NCBI GenBank assembly: GCA_026713825.1
Contig: JAPONS010000074.1
Location: 1-48,914, forward strand
Length of the DNA: 48,914 nt
Direction: 5' to 3'
Source of the DNA: Chloroflexota bacterium
GTDB taxonomy: Bacteria > Chloroflexota > Dehalococcoidia > Lucifugimonadales > UBA1127
Below are positions 26,942 to 34,127 of the stretch, in pieces. The notes beneath the pieces are model-generated. The model did not search any database and was not told where the DNA came from. It saw nothing but the letters and a program-made list of their open reading frames with translations. The position numbers and the translations under genes are program-made. Each line of letters begins with the position of its first letter. Within the stretch, counting starts at the first letter, position 1.

Positions 26942-27538
26942 CTAGATGCCGAGCTTCTCTGAGAGCATCGCGCGCATCTCCTCGACGGTGGCGCGCTGCC
27001 AGGCGGGGTAGCGCTCGAGCGTGCGGGGGCGGGCCGCCTGCCGGACCTGCGCCTCCTCGGCGTCGGCGGGGAGCTCCTTCCGAGCTTCCTCAACGAACTG
27101 CGCGCCCTCGGCGTAGCCGATGGCCGGGCGCTCGATCCAGTGGCAGAGGTAGTCGCCGCCGCTGGTGTAGAAGACGACGGTGGGGATGGAGCGGAACTCG
27201 CCGCGGTTGAGGAACTCGTCCATGATGTCCAGGTTCTCGTCGCGAGGGAAGACGCGGAGCTCCATGCCCGCGGACTCGGCGATGCGGGTGAAGACGGGGA
27301 GGCCGCGGTAGACGTCCGGGCACCAGTCCTCGCCGATGACCATCATGCGGGCCGCGCCGCCCTCCATGCTGGCGGCCTTGCTGAAGAACGCGGCGTCGTC
27401 CGCGGTCATCGAGTCGGCGGCGGTCTCGGTGTACTTCTCGAACATGTCCTTGTTGACGTTGATCTGCGCGATGTAGTCGGGGTAGGTGAAGCCCTGCCCG
27501 TATCGCTCCTGGGTCACGACGCTGGTCTGCTCTGCCAT
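26942..27538 (-). CDS. Thioredoxin-fold protein (Thioredoxin_9-like)
   Basis: 198 residues. The motif EDWCPDVYRGLPVFTRIA, followed by LRVFPRDENLDIMDEFL and FRSIPTVVFYTSGGDYL with the cis-Pro of the thioredoxin fold, matches the Thioredoxin_9 type, which has a single Cys (WCPD) rather than CxxC. Such proteins may act in thiol-disulfide or peroxide-linked reactions but are poorly studied. The N-terminal 40 residues (YPDYIAQINVNKDMFEKY) are helical. The ATG at 27538 is preceded by AAGGAGGAAACC. It lies 72 bp downstream of the probable selenocysteine glutaredoxin on the same strand, so the two may form a redox operon. Confidence 0.8.
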   Translation of the reverse strand: MAEQTSVVTQERYGQGFTYPDYIAQINVNKDMFEKYTETAADSMTADDAAFFSKAASMEGGAARMMVIGEDWCPDVYRGLPVFTRIAESAGMELRVFPRDENLDIMDEFLNRGEFRSIPTVVFYTSGGDYLCHWIERPAIGYAEGAQFVEEARKELPADAEEAQVRQAARPRTLERYPAWQRATVEEMRAMLSEKLGI

Positions 27539-27610
27539 GGTTTCCTCCTTTTTACTGCTCCTGCCTGCTGTCTTCGGGCCCGGTCACGCGGGCCTGTACT
27601 AGAAGATTTC

Positions 27611-27826
27611 TCAGCCCGACTCGCCGTTGAAGCCCTCCTCCACGCGGCCGTCCGGGTAGACGATGACGGGCACGGCGCTGCCGTACTCGCGCGCCTCGTC
27701 CATGTACGTCTGGTTGTCGTCGATCATCCGGTCCTCGAAGTCGATCCCCTGCTCGGTCCACGCAACGCGCAGCGCCTCACACGTGGGTCAGGTGCGCAGG
27801 ATGTAGACGATGGGGACTGTCGCCAT
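27611..27826 (-). CDS. Glutaredoxin-like selenoprotein (UGA-encoded Sec13, U-x-x-C active site)
   Basis: Reading from the ATG at 27826 (AGGAGG just upstream) gives ATVPIVYILRT, an in-frame TGA at 27790-27788, then PTCEALRVAWTEQG and a complete glutaredoxin fold: FEDRMIDDNQTYMDEA, cis-Pro AVPVIVYPDG and GFNGESG before a normal TGA. The internal TGA falls exactly where glutaredoxin and NrdH have the first Cys of C-x-x-C, giving U-P-T-C. A hairpin follows directly. This is the classic pattern of a bacterial selenoprotein, 71 residues with Sec. A nonsense mutation of a Cys codon is the alternative. The selABCD genes are not in this window, so decoding is inferred. Confidence 0.7.
27758..27787 (-). 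promoter_or_regulatory. Candidate bacterial SECIS hairpin
   Basis: Immediately after the UGA, CCACG (complement of 27782-27786) pairs with CGTGG (complement of 27758-27762). Inside, GCG/CGC can pair to leave a CTG apical loop about 16-18 nt from the UGA, in the range reported for bacterial SECIS elements and with a loop G. The outer stem is short and partly wobble-paired inside, so the structure needs computation to judge. Confidence 0.5.
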
Positions 27827-28186
27827 GGCGGCCTCCTGAACATAGCTGGACTACGGCTGGCGGTGTTGTCAAAGAAGATGGTACACGACGGGGCGGGGGC
27901 TGTCACGGCCTTGCCGGGGCGGTCGGCTATTGATTCGTAATGGCAGTTCCTGGGGCGTACAAGGGTTGACACGGATTGTCGCGCGTGCATCATGCACTTA
28001 GAATTATTAGAAGAACGCTCTATCGCTTGACCTTGTCAAGTGCGATAGACCATATGCAACAAGGTTGCCAGATGGAGACACTACCACGATGGTAGCGTAG
28101 CGGTCACGCACAAGACGTGAAGTAGATACCTTGTGCGGGCCGCTTGTGTTTTGTTCCACACAAGACACATGAAGGGGAAGGCAGCA
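27827..28186. other. 360-bp intergenic region with promoter-like and palindromic elements
   Basis: No gene was recognised. Within it are a consensus -35 TTGACA (27966-27971) with a weak -10 CATCAT at 16-bp spacing, and a 13-bp palindrome GTGCAT-C-ATGCAC (27985-27997) overlapping that -10. A larger inverted repeat at 28020-28048 follows, where CTATCGCTTGAC pairs with GTCAA-GT-GCGATAG, leaving a 2-nt bulge. These are placed to drive and control the small protein/retropepsin pair that starts at 28187, with a leader of about 180 nt. Confidence 0.5.
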
Positions 28187-28441
28187 ATGACAACAATTCC
28201 GAACGACAAAATTCAAAAGGACATCTTCGACACTGAAAGGCGTGTCCCCATCTTTTACGCAAGACTCCCTGAGCTTCTGGCCACCCACCCGGACGAGTGG
28301 GTGGCCTTCGTAGAGGGCGATGAGTGGTTCTTCGCAGAAACGTTGTCATCGCTCCTGAATGAACTTGATGCTAAGGGGAAACGGCGCGACACCGCTCTCA
28401 TTAGGTCATTGGCATCCCGTCGTGACATCCTGATCCTGTAG
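28187..28441 (+). CDS. Small protein resembling DUF5678, partner of retropepsin
   Basis: 84 residues from the ATG at 28187, which follows GAAGGGGAAGGC. The central part, YARLPELLATHPDEWVAFVE followed by GDEWFFAETLSSLLNELD, has the Trp-Val-Ala-x-x-x-Gly-Glu pattern and length of DUF5678-like proteins, whose function is unknown. In-frame ATGs at 28133 and 28169 would lengthen it without homology. It is separated from the retropepsin-like gene by 2 bp, so they are certainly one transcription unit and may work together, for example as a binding partner, inhibitor or substrate. The family assignment is tentative. Confidence 0.6.
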   Translation: MTTIPNDKIQKDIFDTERRVPIFYARLPELLATHPDEWVAFVEGDEWFFAETLSSLLNELDAKGKRRDTALIRSLASRRDILIL

Positions 28442-28443
28442 CA

Positions 28444-28899
28444 ATGCCGACAGGTCATTTCGACGAGGGAGAAGCTCCGAGGATAGGAGGAAGGCTTAGC
28501 ATCCCCTCTTTGACAATTTCTGGACACATCGACTTTCTTGTTGACACGGGGGCCGACAACACCGTCTTGTTCATTGATGACGGGGACAGGTTAGGGCTGC
28601 CATACAACAAGCTGCCGCCGCCAACACCCGGCGCTCGCGGCGTTGGCGGCCCCGCAGCCGTATCCATCGTTGAAGCAACGGTCAGCCTATGGGACATCGT
28701 ACAAGAGAATGGCATCGACCATTTCCAAGAGTATCCGCTGTCCATAAGGCTGCTCATCATGCTGCATAACGAAGATGAAGAGAAAGAGAAGGCCATGCAG
28801 GGTGTGGCCTCGCTACTTGGGCGGGACGTACTGAATCACTGGGCAATCTCATACGATGCGCCGACCAACGTCCTCACTTTTGACAACTTCCGAGCTTAA
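28444..28899 (+). CDS. Retropepsin-like aspartic protease
   Basis: 151 residues with the signature of single-domain retroviral-type aspartic proteases: catalytic IDFLVDTGADNTVL (Asp-Thr-Gly, about residues 31-41), a Gly-rich flap-like stretch GARGVGGPAAVS, and the C-terminal hydrophobic-hydrophobic-Gly motif in ASLLGRDVLNHW. Such proteins act as homodimers, each chain giving one Asp. No signal peptide or membrane helix is visible, so it acts in the cytoplasm. The substrate is unknown. The start at 28444 lies 2 bp after the preceding stop; coupling is likely as its own ribosome site is weak. Confidence 0.75.
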   Translation: MPTGHFDEGEAPRIGGRLSIPSLTISGHIDFLVDTGADNTVLFIDDGDRLGLPYNKLPPPTPGARGVGGPAAVSIVEATVSLWDIVQENGIDHFQEYPLSIRLLIMLHNEDEEKEKAMQGVASLLGRDVLNHWAISYDAPTNVLTFDNFRA

Positions 28900-29084: not shown

Positions 29085-30578
29085 CTACCGCCCGGCTGCT
29101 CCAAGCGTGATCCACGCGCCGTCGCCGGGGCGGAGTGCGCGCGTCGCCTCCTCAATAGCGGCCATGACCGGATCGGGGTAGACGCCGAGGAGCACGACGC
29201 CGAGCGCCATCGCGCCGATGACGGCGGTGAGCACGGCGGGCGTCGCGACGGCGACGGAGCCGCCCTCGTCCTCGGGCGCCTTCTCGATGTACATCTGCCG
29301 GATGAGCTGCAGGTAGTAGTAGAGGGAGATGAGGCTCGCGAACATGGCGACGCCCGCCAGCCACAGGAGGTCCTCGGCGGCCGCGGCGGAGAAGAGGTAG
29401 AACTTGGTGACGAAGCCCGCCAGGAAGGGCAGGCCCGCCAGCGAGAAGAGGCCGATGGTGATCGCGGCCGCCAGGAACGGCGAGCGCCCGGCGAGGCCCG
29501 CGAAGTCCGGGATGTCGTCCTTGCCCGTCGCGTTGTAGAAGGCCGTGATGGCGAAGAACACCGCGAAGTTCGTCAGCGAGTAGCCGACGAGGTGCACCAA
29601 GAGCCCGTTGGACGCCAGCGGCGACAGGGCGGCGATTCCCATCAGCAGAAAGCCCACCTGCCCGACGCTCGAGTAGGCCAGCATGCGTTTCACGTTGGTC
29701 TGCACGATGGCGACGACGTTGCCGAAGATCATCGTCAGCGCGGCCATGCCCGCAATGAGCATCTGCCACTGGTCATAGGCGGGCGCGAGTCCCTCGTAGA
29801 AGAGACGCAGCACCAGCGCGAATGCCGCCGCCTTGGAGCCGACGGCGATGTAGGCCGTTATCGGCATCGGCGCGCCCTGGTAGACGTCGGGCGCCCACAT
29901 GTGGAAGGGCACGGCGGCGAGCTTGAAGCCGAGGCCGGCCACCACGAGCGCGAGGCCGATGAGCAGCCGGCCCTCGACGCCGCCCGCGCCGTCAAGCGCC
30001 GTCGCCATCTCGGCGAAGTGCGTCGTGCCGAGGGCGCCGTACAGCAGCACGATGCCGTAGAGGAGCAGGCCGGACGAGAACGCGCCCAGCAGCACGTACT
30101 TGACCGAGGCCTCGTTGGAGCGGCGGTCCTGCAGGGCGAAGCCGCTGAGGATGTAGAGGCAGAAGCTCAGCAGCTCCAGCGACAGGTAGGCGGTCAGGAG
30201 CTCGCCGGACGCGGCCATCATCATCATCGCCAGCACGGACACGATGATGATGGCGTAGTACTCGCCGGGGTGCGTCAGGCGCTGGTTCACGAAGTGCAGC
30301 GAGCCGAGGATGACGGCGATGCCGATGCCCATCGAGAGCACCTTGAAGAAGAGCGCGTAGCTGTCGACGCGGTAGAGGCCGTCGAAGAGGCTGTCGTGCT
30401 CGTTCAGCAGGAAGGGCACGGTGAAGGCGATGATGACGGCGAGACCGGCGGCGGAGACCCAGGCGAGGATGTCCTTTCTGACCGGCCGGATGAAGAAGTC
30501 CAACGTGAACACGAGGAAGGCCAGTCCCGCGACCAGGAACTCCGGCCAGAGCAGCTCGAAACGAACGTCCATCGTCAT
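29085..30578 (-). CDS. nuoN: Complex I subunit N (antiporter-like membrane subunit)
   Basis: 497 residues with about 14 transmembrane helices. It is the NuoN/ND2 member of the Mrp-antiporter-like proton channels in complex I. Supporting features are the central LAVVAGLGFKLAAVPFHMWA-like segment with conserved Lys and His in VPFHMWAPDVYQGAP, RMLAYSSVGQVGFLLMG, and SLAGLPFLAGFVTKFYLF. Its ATG overlaps the nuoM stop as ATGA, so translation is coupled. It is the last gene of the nuo cluster; no clear terminator follows before 28900. Confidence 0.95.
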   Translation of the reverse strand: MTMDVRFELLWPEFLVAGLAFLVFTLDFFIRPVRKDILAWVSAAGLAVIIAFTVPFLLNEHDSLFDGLYRVDSYALFFKVLSMGIGIAVILGSLHFVNQRLTHPGEYYAIIIVSVLAMMMMAASGELLTAYLSLELLSFCLYILSGFALQDRRSNEASVKYVLLGAFSSGLLLYGIVLLYGALGTTHFAEMATALDGAGGVEGRLLIGLALVVAGLGFKLAAVPFHMWAPDVYQGAPMPITAYIAVGSKAAAFALVLRLFYEGLAPAYDQWQMLIAGMAALTMIFGNVVAIVQTNVKRMLAYSSVGQVGFLLMGIAALSPLASNGLLVHLVGYSLTNFAVFFAITAFYNATGKDDIPDFAGLAGRSPFLAAAITIGLFSLAGLPFLAGFVTKFYLFSAAAAEDLLWLAGVAMFASLISLYYYLQLIRQMYIEKAPEDEGGSVAVATPAVLTAVIGAMALGVVLLGVYPDPVMAAIEEATRALRPGDGAWITLGAAGR

Positions 30579-32128
30579 GCGATGCCCATCCCTTCGAGCA
30601 GCGGCTTCACGCCGCTGTCAATGATCTCGACGATGCGGAAGGGGTAGAGGCCCCACAGGAGCAGCACGCCCACCAGCGCCGCGCCCACGGCCACCTCCAG
30701 CGGCTTGGCGTCCTCCAGGTCGGCCCACCGGTCGCTGATGGGGCCGAAGAAGACCTTGGCCATGAGCCGCAGGATGTAGACCGCCGTGATGGCCGCGCCG
30801 ATGACGGCCAGCACGCCCAGGATCGGGTACGTGCGGAAGGTGCCGATGAACACAAGCAGCTCCGCCACGAAGCTGCTGAACCCGGGCAGCCCCAACGACG
30901 TCAATCCCGCCACGGCGAGGAATGCGCCAACGACGCCCATGCGCTTGCCGAGGCCCTCGAGAACGGTGATGTCGCGCAGGTGCGTCCGCTCGTAGATGAT
31001 GCCCACCATGGCGAAGAAGAGGCCCGTCATGATGCCGTGCGAGAACATCTGGAAGACCGCCCCGTTGAGGCCGATGACCTCCAGCGTCCCCAACCCCATG
31101 AGCACGTAGCCCATGTGGCTGACGCTGGAGTAGCCGATGACGTACTTGAGGTCGCGCTGGCCGAGCGCCGAGACCGCGCCGTAGAGCACGTTGACCGTGC
31201 CGAGGCCGATGAGCACCGGCGCCCAGTCGCTCGCGCCCTCGGGCAGGATGACCATGCCGACGGCCAGGATGCCGAACGCGCCCAGCTTCATCAGCACGCC
31301 CGCGTGCAGCATGCTGACGGCCGTCGGGGCGGCGACGTGGCCGTCGGGCGACCAGGTGTGGAAAGGCCACAGGCCCGCCAGCACGCCGAAGCCGACCATG
31401 AAGAACGGGTAGAAAATGCGCTGGAAGTTTGTCGAGTACTCTACATCGGCCAGCGCCGCGATGGAGAAGCTCGCCATGCCGGTCTCGGCGCGGGCCTCGG
31501 CCCAGACGGCGAGGATGGCGACCCAGACGAGCACGCTGCCGGCGACCAGGTAGAGCATCAGCTTCATCGCCCCGTATTCCTTGGGGCGGTCGTACTTGCC
31601 GCCGCCGCCGTACCCGGGGATCTCGACGGCGGGCTGCTTCGTGAAGTCGGTGCTGCTGCCCCACACGCCGATGAGCAGGTACATGGGCACCACGGCCAGC
31701 TCGTAGAAGAAGAAGAGGAAGAAGAGGTCGGTCGCCAGGAAGACGCCGTAGACGCCCGCGACCAGCAGCGTCAGCCAGATGAAGAAGTCCTTGGGCCGGT
31801 GCGTCACGTTCCACGACACCAGCACGCCCGCCATGAAGATGATGGCGTTCAGCAGCACCAGCGGCGTCGTGATGCCCGAGATGCCCAGCGAATAGCGGAT
31901 GCCCAGCGCGGGCAGCCACTCGAAGTCGACGGTGTACTTCGACAGGTCGCCGTCGGTGTCGAAGGTCACGAAGAGCCACACCGCCATCACGAGGCCCGCG
32001 AAGGCGATGACGCGCGTGTACCAGTGGATGAGGCTGTGCTTGTCGGCGGGGAAGAAGACCATCACCAGCGCCCCGAAGAAGGGCACGGCGATCAGCGCAA
32101 AGAGCAGGACGCTTTCCATGCTGCTCAT
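30575..32128 (-). CDS. nuoM: Complex I subunit M (antiporter-like membrane subunit)
   Basis: 517 residues, about 14 transmembrane helices. NuoM/ND4 signatures include FFYELAVVPMYLLIGVWG with the conserved Glu, the WPFHTWSPDGHVAAPTAVSM loop with Lys/His nearby, YSSVSHMGYVLMG and SLGLPGFSSFVAELLVF. The ATG at 32128 (MSSMES) is chosen; a second ATG at 32119 is possible. In the sequence before this start, the last part of nuoL is repeated, so the ATG still overlaps a TGA belonging to that duplicate. This suggests that nuoL and nuoM once overlapped as ATGA before an insertion separated them. Confidence 0.95.
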   Translation of the reverse strand: MSSMESVLLFALIAVPFFGALVMVFFPADKHSLIHWYTRVIAFAGLVMAVWLFVTFDTDGDLSKYTVDFEWLPALGIRYSLGISGITTPLVLLNAIIFMAGVLVSWNVTHRPKDFFIWLTLLVAGVYGVFLATDLFFLFFFYELAVVPMYLLIGVWGSSTDFTKQPAVEIPGYGGGGKYDRPKEYGAMKLMLYLVAGSVLVWVAILAVWAEARAETGMASFSIAALADVEYSTNFQRIFYPFFMVGFGVLAGLWPFHTWSPDGHVAAPTAVSMLHAGVLMKLGAFGILAVGMVILPEGASDWAPVLIGLGTVNVLYGAVSALGQRDLKYVIGYSSVSHMGYVLMGLGTLEVIGLNGAVFQMFSHGIMTGLFFAMVGIIYERTHLRDITVLEGLGKRMGVVGAFLAVAGLTSLGLPGFSSFVAELLVFIGTFRTYPILGVLAVIGAAITAVYILRLMAKVFFGPISDRWADLEDAKPLEVAVGAALVGVLLLWGLYPFRIVEIIDSGVKPLLEGMGIA

Positions 32129-32307
32129 TGCGCCACCCACCACGCGACGGCGAGGGCCAGGAAGCCGAGCGCCATGCCCAGCCCCCCTCTCGTCATTCCG
32201 GCGAAAGCCGGAATCCAGGGGTGCGGGGAGGCCGTCATGCACATCGTCATCATTGCGCCACCCACCACGCGACGGCGAGGGCCAGGAAGCCGAGCACCAT
32301 GCCCAGC
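32125..32307. repeat. 58-bp direct repeat of the nuoL 3' end flanking a REP-like palindrome
   Basis: 32125-32182 and 32250-32307 are identical except one base (32171 vs 32296). The right copy is the true 3' end of nuoL; the left is a duplicate fused to the nuoM start. Between them, about 67 bp include a perfect 8-bp stem palindrome ATTCCGGC-GAAA-GCCGGAAT (32195-32214). Confidence 0.95.
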
Positions 32308-34127
32308 GCGTAGCTGTAGAGCTTGCCCGTCTGCACCAGCCGCAGGACCCGCCCGGACCGCTCCGTCACCACGCCCGGGCCGTTCACCCCAACGTCGTTC
32401 ACGAGCGCCCGGTCAACCCAGGCGATGGCGTTGCCCAGCGTGAGCACGACCGTGTCGATGGTCCACTGGTAGACCTCGTCGACGTAGAACTTGTTGGCGA
32501 CGGCCGTGTGCACGGGCCGCACCCTCGCGATGATGCCCTCGGTGCTCAGGCTGCCCGTCACGTACGCCAGCCACGCGATGCCGAAGCCGGCGAGCGCCAG
32601 CACCGCCGACGCGACCGCGATCCCCACGTTCAGGTGGAAGGCCTCCTGGTGGTCGCCGGCGAAGACGAAGTAGCCGAAGCCCCCATAGCCGTCGGTCCAG
32701 CCGAAGGCGAGCAGGCCGCCCAATGCGCCGAGCGTCGTGAAGACCAGCATGGGTGCGAGCATGGAGGGCCCGGACTCGTGGGCGTGCTCGTTCTCGGGCT
32801 TCAGCTTGCCGAGGAAGGCGGAGAAGAAGACGCGGCCCATGTACAGCGCCTTCATAAAGCCGACTGTCAGCGCGACGATGAGGAAGACCCAGCCGAACTG
32901 CCCGTGGAAGGCGGCCAGCGTGACCTCGTCCTTGCTGAAGAAGCCGCCGAAGGGCGGGATGCCGCCCAGAGAGAGCGCCGCCACGCCGAAGGCAAGCGCC
33001 GTCAACGGCATCCGCCGCCGCAGCCCGCCCATCTGCCGGATGTCGGTCTGCTCGCTGCCGTGGGAGATGCTGCCCGCGCCGAGGAACAGCGTCGCCTTGG
33101 CGAAGCCGTGGAGCAGCAGGTGGAACATGCCCGCCGTCACGCTGCCCGCGCCGAGGGCCAGCATCATGAAGGCGAGGTCCGTCAGCGTCGAGTAGGCGAG
33201 CACGCGCTTGATGTCGGTCATCACGAGCGCCATCGCGGCCGCGCCGAGGGCCGTCACCGCGCCGAGGCAGAGGAGCACCAGCGACGCCGTGTCCGAGGCC
33301 TCGAAGAAGGGGAAGACGCGCGCCACCAGGAACACGCCCGCAACGACCATCGTGGCTGAGTGCACCAGCGCGCTGACGGGCGTCGGGCCCTCCATCGCGT
33401 CGGGCAGCCAGACGTGGAACGGGAACTGCGCCGACTTGCCGATGGCGCCCATGAGCATCAGGAGCGCCGCGCCGGTGACCACGCCCTCGGAGAGCTCGCC
33501 GTTCGCCAGCGCGGCGAAGATGGCCGAGAGCTCGAAGGTGCCGGTCTCGACGAAGAGCAGCAGGATGCCGATGAGCAGGCCGACGTCGCCGACGCGCGTC
33601 GTGATGAAGGCCTTCTTGGCCGCCTCGGCCGCCGAGCGCCGGTCGTAGAAGAAACCGATGAGCAGGTAGCTGCAGATGCCGACCAGCTCCCACGCGATGT
33701 AGAGCAGCAGCAGGTTGTCGGCCATCACGAGGGCGAGCATGGAAGCGGCGAAGAGGGAGTGGACGGCGAAAAACCAGGTGAAGCGCGGCTCGTGGGCCAT
33801 GTAGCCCCACGAGTAGACCTGGATGCCCAGCGCGGCCGCCGTCACGAGGCCCAGCATCGTCAGCGTGATCGGGTCGATCCACATGCCCCACGTCAGCACG
33901 GCGTCGCCGGCCCGCAGCCAGTCGATGCTGTACATGAACGTGTAGTCGCCGGGGAACGACTTCTGCCCGAACCAGTCGGCGAAGACGAAGAAGAAGAGCG
34001 CGAAGCTGACGGCCATGGAGCCCGTGGCCAGGATGGCGCCCCAGTTCGGCAACCACCGCCTCAGCGCCACCATGAGCGCGAAGGCGATCGCCGGCAGCGA
34101 CGGGATGAGCCACGCCCACTCCATCAT
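32250..34127 (-). CDS. nuoL: Complex I subunit L (antiporter-like subunit with lateral helix)
   Basis: 625 residues, the expected size of NuoL/ND5, with about 16 transmembrane helices including the C-terminal long amphipathic segment. Signatures are YIAWELVGICSYLLIGFFYD with the conserved Glu, SAQFPFHVWLPDAMEGPTPV, VHSATMVVAGVFLVAR, VLAYSTLTDLAFMMLALG and LSLGGIPPFGGFFSKDEV. It forms the distal proton channel. The start is ATG 34127. Its terminal 58 bp are duplicated downstream. A 98-bp gap with a hairpin repeat separates it from nuoK. Confidence 0.96.
   Translation of the reverse strand: MMEWAWLIPSLPAIAFALMVALRRWLPNWGAILATGSMAVSFALFFFVFADWFGQKSFPGDYTFMYSIDWLRAGDAVLTWGMWIDPITLTMLGLVTAAALGIQVYSWGYMAHEPRFTWFFAVHSLFAASMLALVMADNLLLLYIAWELVGICSYLLIGFFYDRRSAAEAAKKAFITTRVGDVGLLIGILLLFVETGTFELSAIFAALANGELSEGVVTGAALLMLMGAIGKSAQFPFHVWLPDAMEGPTPVSALVHSATMVVAGVFLVARVFPFFEASDTASLVLLCLGAVTALGAAAMALVMTDIKRVLAYSTLTDLAFMMLALGAGSVTAGMFHLLLHGFAKATLFLGAGSISHGSEQTDIRQMGGLRRRMPLTALAFGVAALSLGGIPPFGGFFSKDEVTLAAFHGQFGWVFLIVALTVGFMKALYMGRVFFSAFLGKLKPENEHAHESGPSMLAPMLVFTTLGALGGLLAFGWTDGYGGFGYFVFAGDHQEAFHLNVGIAVASAVLALAGFGIAWLAYVTGSLSTEGIIARVRPVHTAVANKFYVDEVYQWTIDTVVLTLGNAIAWVDRALVNDVGVNGPGVVTERSGRVLRLVQTGKLYSYALGMVLGFLALAVAWWVAQ

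Follow-up and report, generated by a model that had tools for sequence, protein, structure and literature searches.

Glutaredoxin-like proteins that contain selenocysteine (Sec) appear in more than one entry of a review list (PMC13188914). Among the UXX-star (seleno)proteins, family 1 has a UxxT motif and two Sec residues, and family 2 has a GxGU motif and one Sec residue; separately, Sec glutaredoxins with U-x-x-C are listed as Grx, PF00462, UxxC (PMC13188914). Given the two Sec residues of UXX-star family 1, a glutaredoxin-like protein with a pair of selenocysteines has, in principle, a precedent. The nearest known kind to the group described here is UXX-star (NF041212; families NF041114, NF041211, and NF047338), for which our definition was drawn from the same review, the NCBIfam profiles, and member sequences. 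The profile end and one locus from another family of the same class (L164) indicate that the name stands for Sec, two residues, and stop. This L164 locus is a UXX-star gene (112 bits) with CPYC as its C-x-x-C motif; it ends in GFGGG-TGA-CAC-ATC-TAA (GFGGG-U-H-I-stop), and a GC-rich stretch after its stop may form a hairpin. Our literature search, which did not cover the two papers that define UXX-star (Haft and Gwadz 2023; Haft and Tolstoy 2025), found no description of the double-Sec group reported below.

In this work, we analyzed a stretch of 48,914 nucleotides (the window) from the assembly (2.64 Mb, 96% complete) of an uncultured Chloroflexota bacterium, a SAR202-type member of Dehalococcoidia. 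Its nearest named relatives are Dehalococcoidia/Chloroflexota metagenome-assembled genomes, and the label SAR202 cluster is attached to other genomes in the order. On the minus strand of the source contig, the ATG at 27826 opens a glutaredoxin-like frame with an internal TGA at codon 13. Judging from sequence comparisons, the product of this locus is in all likelihood a glutaredoxin-like protein of 75 residues, two of which (Sec13 and Sec72) are selenocysteines. The two UGA codons of the gene, the second of which is near the protein end, are very probably each read as Sec, and the real protein very probably carries two selenium atoms. The features of the locus are as follows.

27832..27837, minus strand: predicted ribosome-binding site AGGAGG, a good sequence match ahead of the ATG at 27826
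27602..27826, minus strand: predicted coding sequence of the glutaredoxin-like double selenoprotein, 75 aa, MATVPIVYILRT-U-PTCEALRVAWTEQGIDFEDRMIDDNQTYMDEAREYGSAVPVIVYPDGRVEEGFNGESG-U-EIF
27788..27790, minus strand: UGA1, predicted Sec13, opens U-P-T-C (from the homologue alignment)
27758..27772, minus strand: putative SECIS 1, CUGCGC-GUU-GCGUGG, 6-bp stem, loop GUU, with a G at +22 after UGA1
27611..27613, minus strand: UGA2, predicted Sec72, with 3 residues remaining before the stop (from the homologue codon counts)
27602..27610, minus strand: codons 73-75, Glu-Ile-Phe, with Ile conserved at position 74
27599..27601, minus strand: true stop TAG; relatives have mixed stop codons at the same place
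27577..27594, minus strand: predicted SECIS 2, GGCCCG-CGUGAC-CGGGCC, 6-bp stem, wholly beyond the stop codon (from covariation)
26942..27538, minus strand: thioredoxin-like protein, Thioredoxin_9 (Pfam E 7.5e-25)

The frame on the minus strand is MATVPIVYILRT-TGA-PTCEALRVAW...VPVIVYPDGRVEEGFNGESG-TGA-EIF-TAG, and the corresponding protein pattern is M...RT-U13-PTC...GESG-U72-EIF-stop. With C put for U, the product matches the Pfam Glutaredoxin domain (PF00462; E 3.3e-8, 34 bits vs. a gathering score of 22.9). An earlier reading made without database searches (hereafter the sequence-only reading) had placed an in-frame TGA at the first Cys of C-x-x-C and described the downstream Cys, the cis-Pro, and the C-terminal GF-G motif as intact. 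Our results agree, since the TGA lies at 27790-27788 of the minus strand and the second Cys (C16), the cis-Pro (V52-P53), and the G-F-x-G motif are all present. The same reading counted a single Sec codon and ended the gene at 27611. The TGA found there appears to be a conserved recoded codon followed by Glu-Ile-Phe and the TAG at 27601-27599, so a second Sec codon had been taken as the stop and the C-terminus was wrong. Ordinary annotation likewise takes the codon 72 UGA for a stop, and standard gene calling that stops at UGA1 leaves 12 residues of the source protein. The commoner relatives with Cys13, when annotated by standard calling, look complete yet lose their most conserved reactive residue.

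The evidence for the second Sec comes from 85 non-identical homologous loci, which come from two sources, relatives of the source genome and species genomes of bacteria and archaea that were scanned for the gene. Codon 72 is TGA in 69 of these loci and TGC/TGT in the other 16; TAA and TAG do not occur. The true stop of the U72 loci, four codons past position 72, is mixed (TGA 40, TAG 19, and TAA 9), and one locus (L043) has GGG at the usual stop place and its own stop one codon earlier. Between U72 and the stop (x-Ile-x), position 74 is Ile in 66 of the 69 loci and Leu/Val otherwise, and the third base of the Ile codon varies freely (ATC/ATT/ATA). The Cys forms end in GCYIG*, GCHIG*, and SCNIG*. 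The codon counts, the conserved x-Ile-x, and the mixed stop thus point to a position for Sec or Cys, after which three more codons are translated before the stop, and this comparison of homologues shows UGA2 to be recoded. On a tree based on the glutaredoxin and its neighbour gene, with positions 13 and 72 left out, position 72 changes twice and position 13 switches about seven times. In these alignments, U72 is the near-constant residue of the group and position 13 is the variable one. The group adds a Sec family that spans the order, to a lineage rich in marine and sponge-derived members.

The region past the true stop provides a second line of evidence. Bacterial SECIS elements are expected to have a loop of 3-9 nt with a G in the first two places, a stem of 4-16 bp, a distance of 16-37 nt from the UGA, and an energy of <= -7.5 kcal/mol (PMC13188914). 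The hairpin after UGA2 in the source locus (27594-27577), with loop CGUGAC and its loop G at +24 from UGA2, has an energy of -11.0 kcal/mol (z about -4) and lies within these limits for stem, loop, distance, and energy. It is much stronger than the one after UGA1 and was absent from the sequence-only reading. In a geometry-restricted search, all six stem pairs were found in 60 of the 69 UGA72 loci vs. 3.8% of dinucleotide shuffles made from these regions, counts that ignore the tree and the non-independence of homologues. By the same search, the complete stem is present in only 2 of 19 Cys72 loci (the 16 homologues and three UXX-star-type outliers). Across the 69 loci, each of the six stem positions has four to six standard pair types; the hairpins are G/C-rich, with a stem of at least 6 bp and a small loop that starts mostly with G-U or G-G, and the distance from UGA2 to the loop is 16-23 nt (mostly 17-18 nt). 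When pairing was scored in a fixed register and no stem search was used, 73% was paired vs. 58% in shuffles at one offset. Inflation of the pairing by the choice of the best stem per locus was considered and rejected, given the few full stems that the same search finds in shuffles and Cys72 loci. Taken together, these comparisons show that selection maintains the pairing of hairpin 2 where UGA2 is present. The search for SECIS family matches in Rfam found none in the source stretch and 20 loci, even at permissive thresholds, and is uninformative since this type of hairpin matched none of the models scanned.

These results also bear on the simpler explanation that only UGA1 encodes Sec, with UGA2 an ordinary stop and the hairpin after it a terminator or a chance structure. 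TGA is indeed a common stop here (40 of the 68 readable true stops), and a hairpin shortly past a stop can be a terminator. However, a plain stop codon does not accord with a position that is TGA in 69 loci, Cys in 16, and never TAA/TAG, with an Ile codon kept after it and a mixed real stop four codons on. Moreover, the hairpin accompanies Sec and is mostly missing with Cys, though the same downstream gene often follows. We rejected a terminator function, as TTTT stands behind the hairpin in only 5 of the 69 loci and the hairpin sits inside a gene pair, and we give the ordinary-stop explanation a very small chance. With UGA2 read as Sec, the position of SECIS 2 outside the coding region means that 69 natural versions of this element are free of codon constraint. 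These versions picture the apparent SelB needs of the lineage (a 6-bp stem, a loop starting with G-U or G-G, and a spacing of mostly 17-18 nt), and the set can help in predicting SECIS elements and in testing the specificity of SelB.

The first Sec position has a more varied history. Codon 13 encodes Cys in 67 of the 85 loci, is TGA in 17, and is TGG in one; the alignment check proposed in the sequence-only reading, for Cys in place of U13 among homologues, was thus borne out. All 17 U13 forms also carry U72, so U13 never occurs without it. UGA1 is common to four of the five genomes of the genus and to 13 further loci in other families. One locus of the same genus (L028) has TGG (Trp) at codon 13 and still has a hairpin of the UGA1 type. 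Either Sec was lost to Trp there, in which case U13 is not indispensable, or the base is wrong. In other families of the order (L056-L064), the U13 motif is U-P-A-S in seven loci, U-N-A-S in one, and U-P-V-G in one. The second active-site Cys is lost in these loci, which rules out an internal selenenyl-sulfide between Sec13 and residue 16.

The sequence-only reading had also described a hairpin after UGA1 at SECIS spacing, and this claim held in part. The loop G of putative SECIS 1 falls inside the bacterial distance window of SECIS elements, and the energies are -4.7 for the apical stem alone and -16.3 for the whole 45-nt fold. Free minimum-energy folding of the region after UGA1 in the source locus was not more stable than shuffles (z +1.76), and the hairpin was assessed instead by the geometry-restricted search with synonymous shuffles. 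By this method, the hairpin of the source locus itself does not beat the shuffles (z -1.0, p 0.18). Codons of the U13 class are biased towards such a hairpin, with a mean z of -1.35 and a standard error of 0.22, vs. -0.21 for the C13 class, with a Mann-Whitney p of 2e-5 that ignores the tree and relatedness. Several U13 loci have SECIS-like hairpins with p < 0.05. In one locus (L029), the UGA1 stem has a bulged U and the loop AGGUUUG, which we take to resemble the E. coli fdhF element. The UGA1 hairpin is therefore supported in the family and weak in the source locus, and the case for Sec at UGA1 is strong from conservation and moderate from the hairpin.

The weak hairpin leaves some room for a reading in which UGA2 is Sec and the source UGA1 represents a lesion or a poorly decoded codon, with the N-terminal site decaying in this lineage. 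The TGG in a congener and the fact that C13 is the commoner state in the family are in line with such a decay. The persistence of UGA1 in four of the five genus genomes and in 13 loci elsewhere, with purifying selection on both sides, argues against it, as do the SECIS-like hairpins of several loci (p < 0.05) and a position that, one Trp apart, switches only between Sec and Cys. We consider this reading improbable, and favour Sec at both positions.

Decoding of both codons would require Sec machinery, and the presence of selA, selB, selC, and selD, which the sequence-only reading had suggested as a check, was confirmed in the organism's own genome. The matches score 544 bits for selA, 315 bits for selB (whose C-terminal domain is also found), 380 bits for selD (which has Sec within HCAGUAAK), and 68.5 bits for tRNA-Sec (selC; anticodon TCA). 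The selD gene (L012, contig C17) is itself a selenoprotein gene, which serves as an internal positive control for Sec decoding. Among the relatives, selA scores over the cut-off in 170 of 197 and is thus weakly informative for co-occurrence with the Sec form; two genomes that have no good selA match (G046 and G057) both carry Cys72 forms. Reading of TGA as Trp throughout (code 4) was rejected, as TGA serves as a normal stop in these genomes.

The two in-frame TGAs are the only point in favour of a pseudogene or an assembly error, in which they would be mutations or sequencing errors in a dead gene. The same TGAs are found in many independent assemblies, single-contig genomes included; for example, the single 2.86-Mb chromosome OX638292.1, one of the nearest named relatives, has both, with a protein that is 94% identical. 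Between the TGAs, dN/dS against three congeners is 0.015/0.114 (nearest relative), 0.065/0.228, and 0.19/0.77, that is, about 0.13-0.29 in the nearest relatives, with both UGAs kept. Decay downstream of the TGA, which the sequence-only reading had named as the sign of a pseudogene, was not found in the relatives. With an open frame, dN/dS well below 1, a conserved neighbour, and Sec machinery, the probability of a dead gene or an assembly error is negligible.

The sequence-only reading had called the gene downstream thioredoxin-like, and it does encode a Thioredoxin_9 protein, with a single conserved active-site Cys. In 76 of the 85 loci, a relative of this gene comes next after the glutaredoxin in the same orientation (gap 27-161 nt, median 69 nt), namely, in 66 of 68 loci with Cys/Sec13 and Sec72, in the Trp13 locus, and in 9 of 16 Cys72 loci. 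By these counts, the pair of glutaredoxin-like and Thioredoxin_9 genes is conserved. The active site of the partner is W-C-[P/G]-D-V, with the single Cys invariant in 72 of 72 sequences and a Val standing where C-x-x-C would have its second Cys; 49 of the 72 also have a Cys at reference position 132. On the other side of the glutaredoxin gene, the window contains a small protein with an aspartyl-protease-like domain (28444-28899, plus strand; LVDTGAD; Asp_protease_2 E 1.7e-6) and, beside it, a 102-aa ORF that has no Pfam match (28133-28441). Two Proton_antipo_M subunits follow on the minus strand (29085-30578 and 32250-34127, within 29085-34127), which probably belong to a run of nuo-type genes for respiratory complex I.

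The machinery, the Cys homologues, the lack of decay downstream, and the same TGA in relatives thus support the earlier reading of the locus as a redox gene pair that includes a Sec glutaredoxin-like protein. Its description was incomplete, as it gave U13 as the defining residue while U72 is the conserved one, and it did not connect the protein with the UXX-star family and its C-terminal Sec.

The AlphaFold2 model (pLDDT 93.4) has a glutaredoxin/NrdH fold, and VIA superposes 64-67 of its residues on NrdH, BC3987, and cGrx1 with an rmsd of about 2 and a Z of about 9-10. The best sequence and Foldseek match is cGrx1 (7c10; about 31% identity), which derives from a clostridial Sec-glutaredoxin. 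Going by the glutaredoxin fold, the Gly-rich loop ahead of Sec72 would lie near the active site. We propose that each UGA would be decoded by SelB and tRNA-Sec through a hairpin with its loop G about 22-24 nt downstream, UGA2 being served by the second hairpin entirely beyond the stop codon. The protein would be a selenol/thiol oxidoreductase, with the C-terminal Sec as its near-constant reactive group and either Sec or Cys, by lineage, at position 13. The protein probably trades electrons with the single-Cys thioredoxin-like neighbour or resolves the mixed (seleno)disulfide of that protein, and the pair may act as one redox module.

A different function, compatible with double Sec, is that the protein serves mainly as a metal/metalloid ligand (a selenolate/thiolate site) rather than as a disulfide reductase. 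The Sec of UXX-star proteins may bind metal (PMC13188914), and several lineages have U-P-A-S or C-R-G-S and thus no second active-site Cys. The glutaredoxin/NrdH fold, the C-x-x-C that is intact in most members, and the thioredoxin-like partner gene argue in the other direction, and we regard a metal-binding role as rather unlikely. For the redox function, a broader proposal is possible but doubtful as a whole: these genes may represent a selenoprotein family that is found across the order of SAR202-type Dehalococcoidia and has so far escaped recognition. Its C-terminal Sec, nearly constant and decoded via a SECIS wholly past the stop, and its variable active-site Sec/Cys would work jointly, possibly as a diselenide or selenenyl-sulfide pair, and the protein would form a redox system of two dedicated components with its single-Cys thioredoxin-like partner.

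Compared with known families, the protein resembles the U-x-x-C Sec glutaredoxins (cGrx1 structures 7c10 and 7c12) in its fold and in having Sec/Cys at the first active-site position, but it has a second Sec just past the Gly-rich loop, where the chain comes to its end. It is like the NrdH-redoxin, mycoredoxin, and TIGR02196 YruB-like families in fold (VIA Z 9-10 to NrdH), size, and C-x-x-C, whereas the source protein scores below all of their curated cut-offs; to our knowledge, these families have no C-terminal Sec/Cys motif. The closest resemblance is to UXX-star, with which it shares a length of about 70-75 aa, a glutaredoxin-like domain, and a Gly-rich G-F-x-G-x-x-G that precedes a Sec/Cys close to the stop. 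Each of the 34 members tested has a match to NF041212, and 28 to 31 of them match the family 1 to 3 models. However, the source protein reaches 36.7 bits vs. the NF041212 cut-off of 66, though matched nearly end to end, and present NCBI UXX-star models thus score it below cut-off. The group further differs in having three residues rather than two between Sec and stop (U-x-I-x; L043 has two), in its U/C-P-x-C motif, and in its pairing with a Thioredoxin_9 gene. Two homologues from another family of the same class (L159 and L160) end in GEHG-TGA-GAG-ATC-ACN-TGA, followed by a GC-rich hairpin-like stretch; their active site is C-P-T-S, and no Thioredoxin_9 gene was found in the flank examined. 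The domain feature of UXX-star, a glutaredoxin-like protein with a C-terminal Sec/Cys, is present in the group described here, which departs from UXX-star in two membership features yet is plainly of the same kind.
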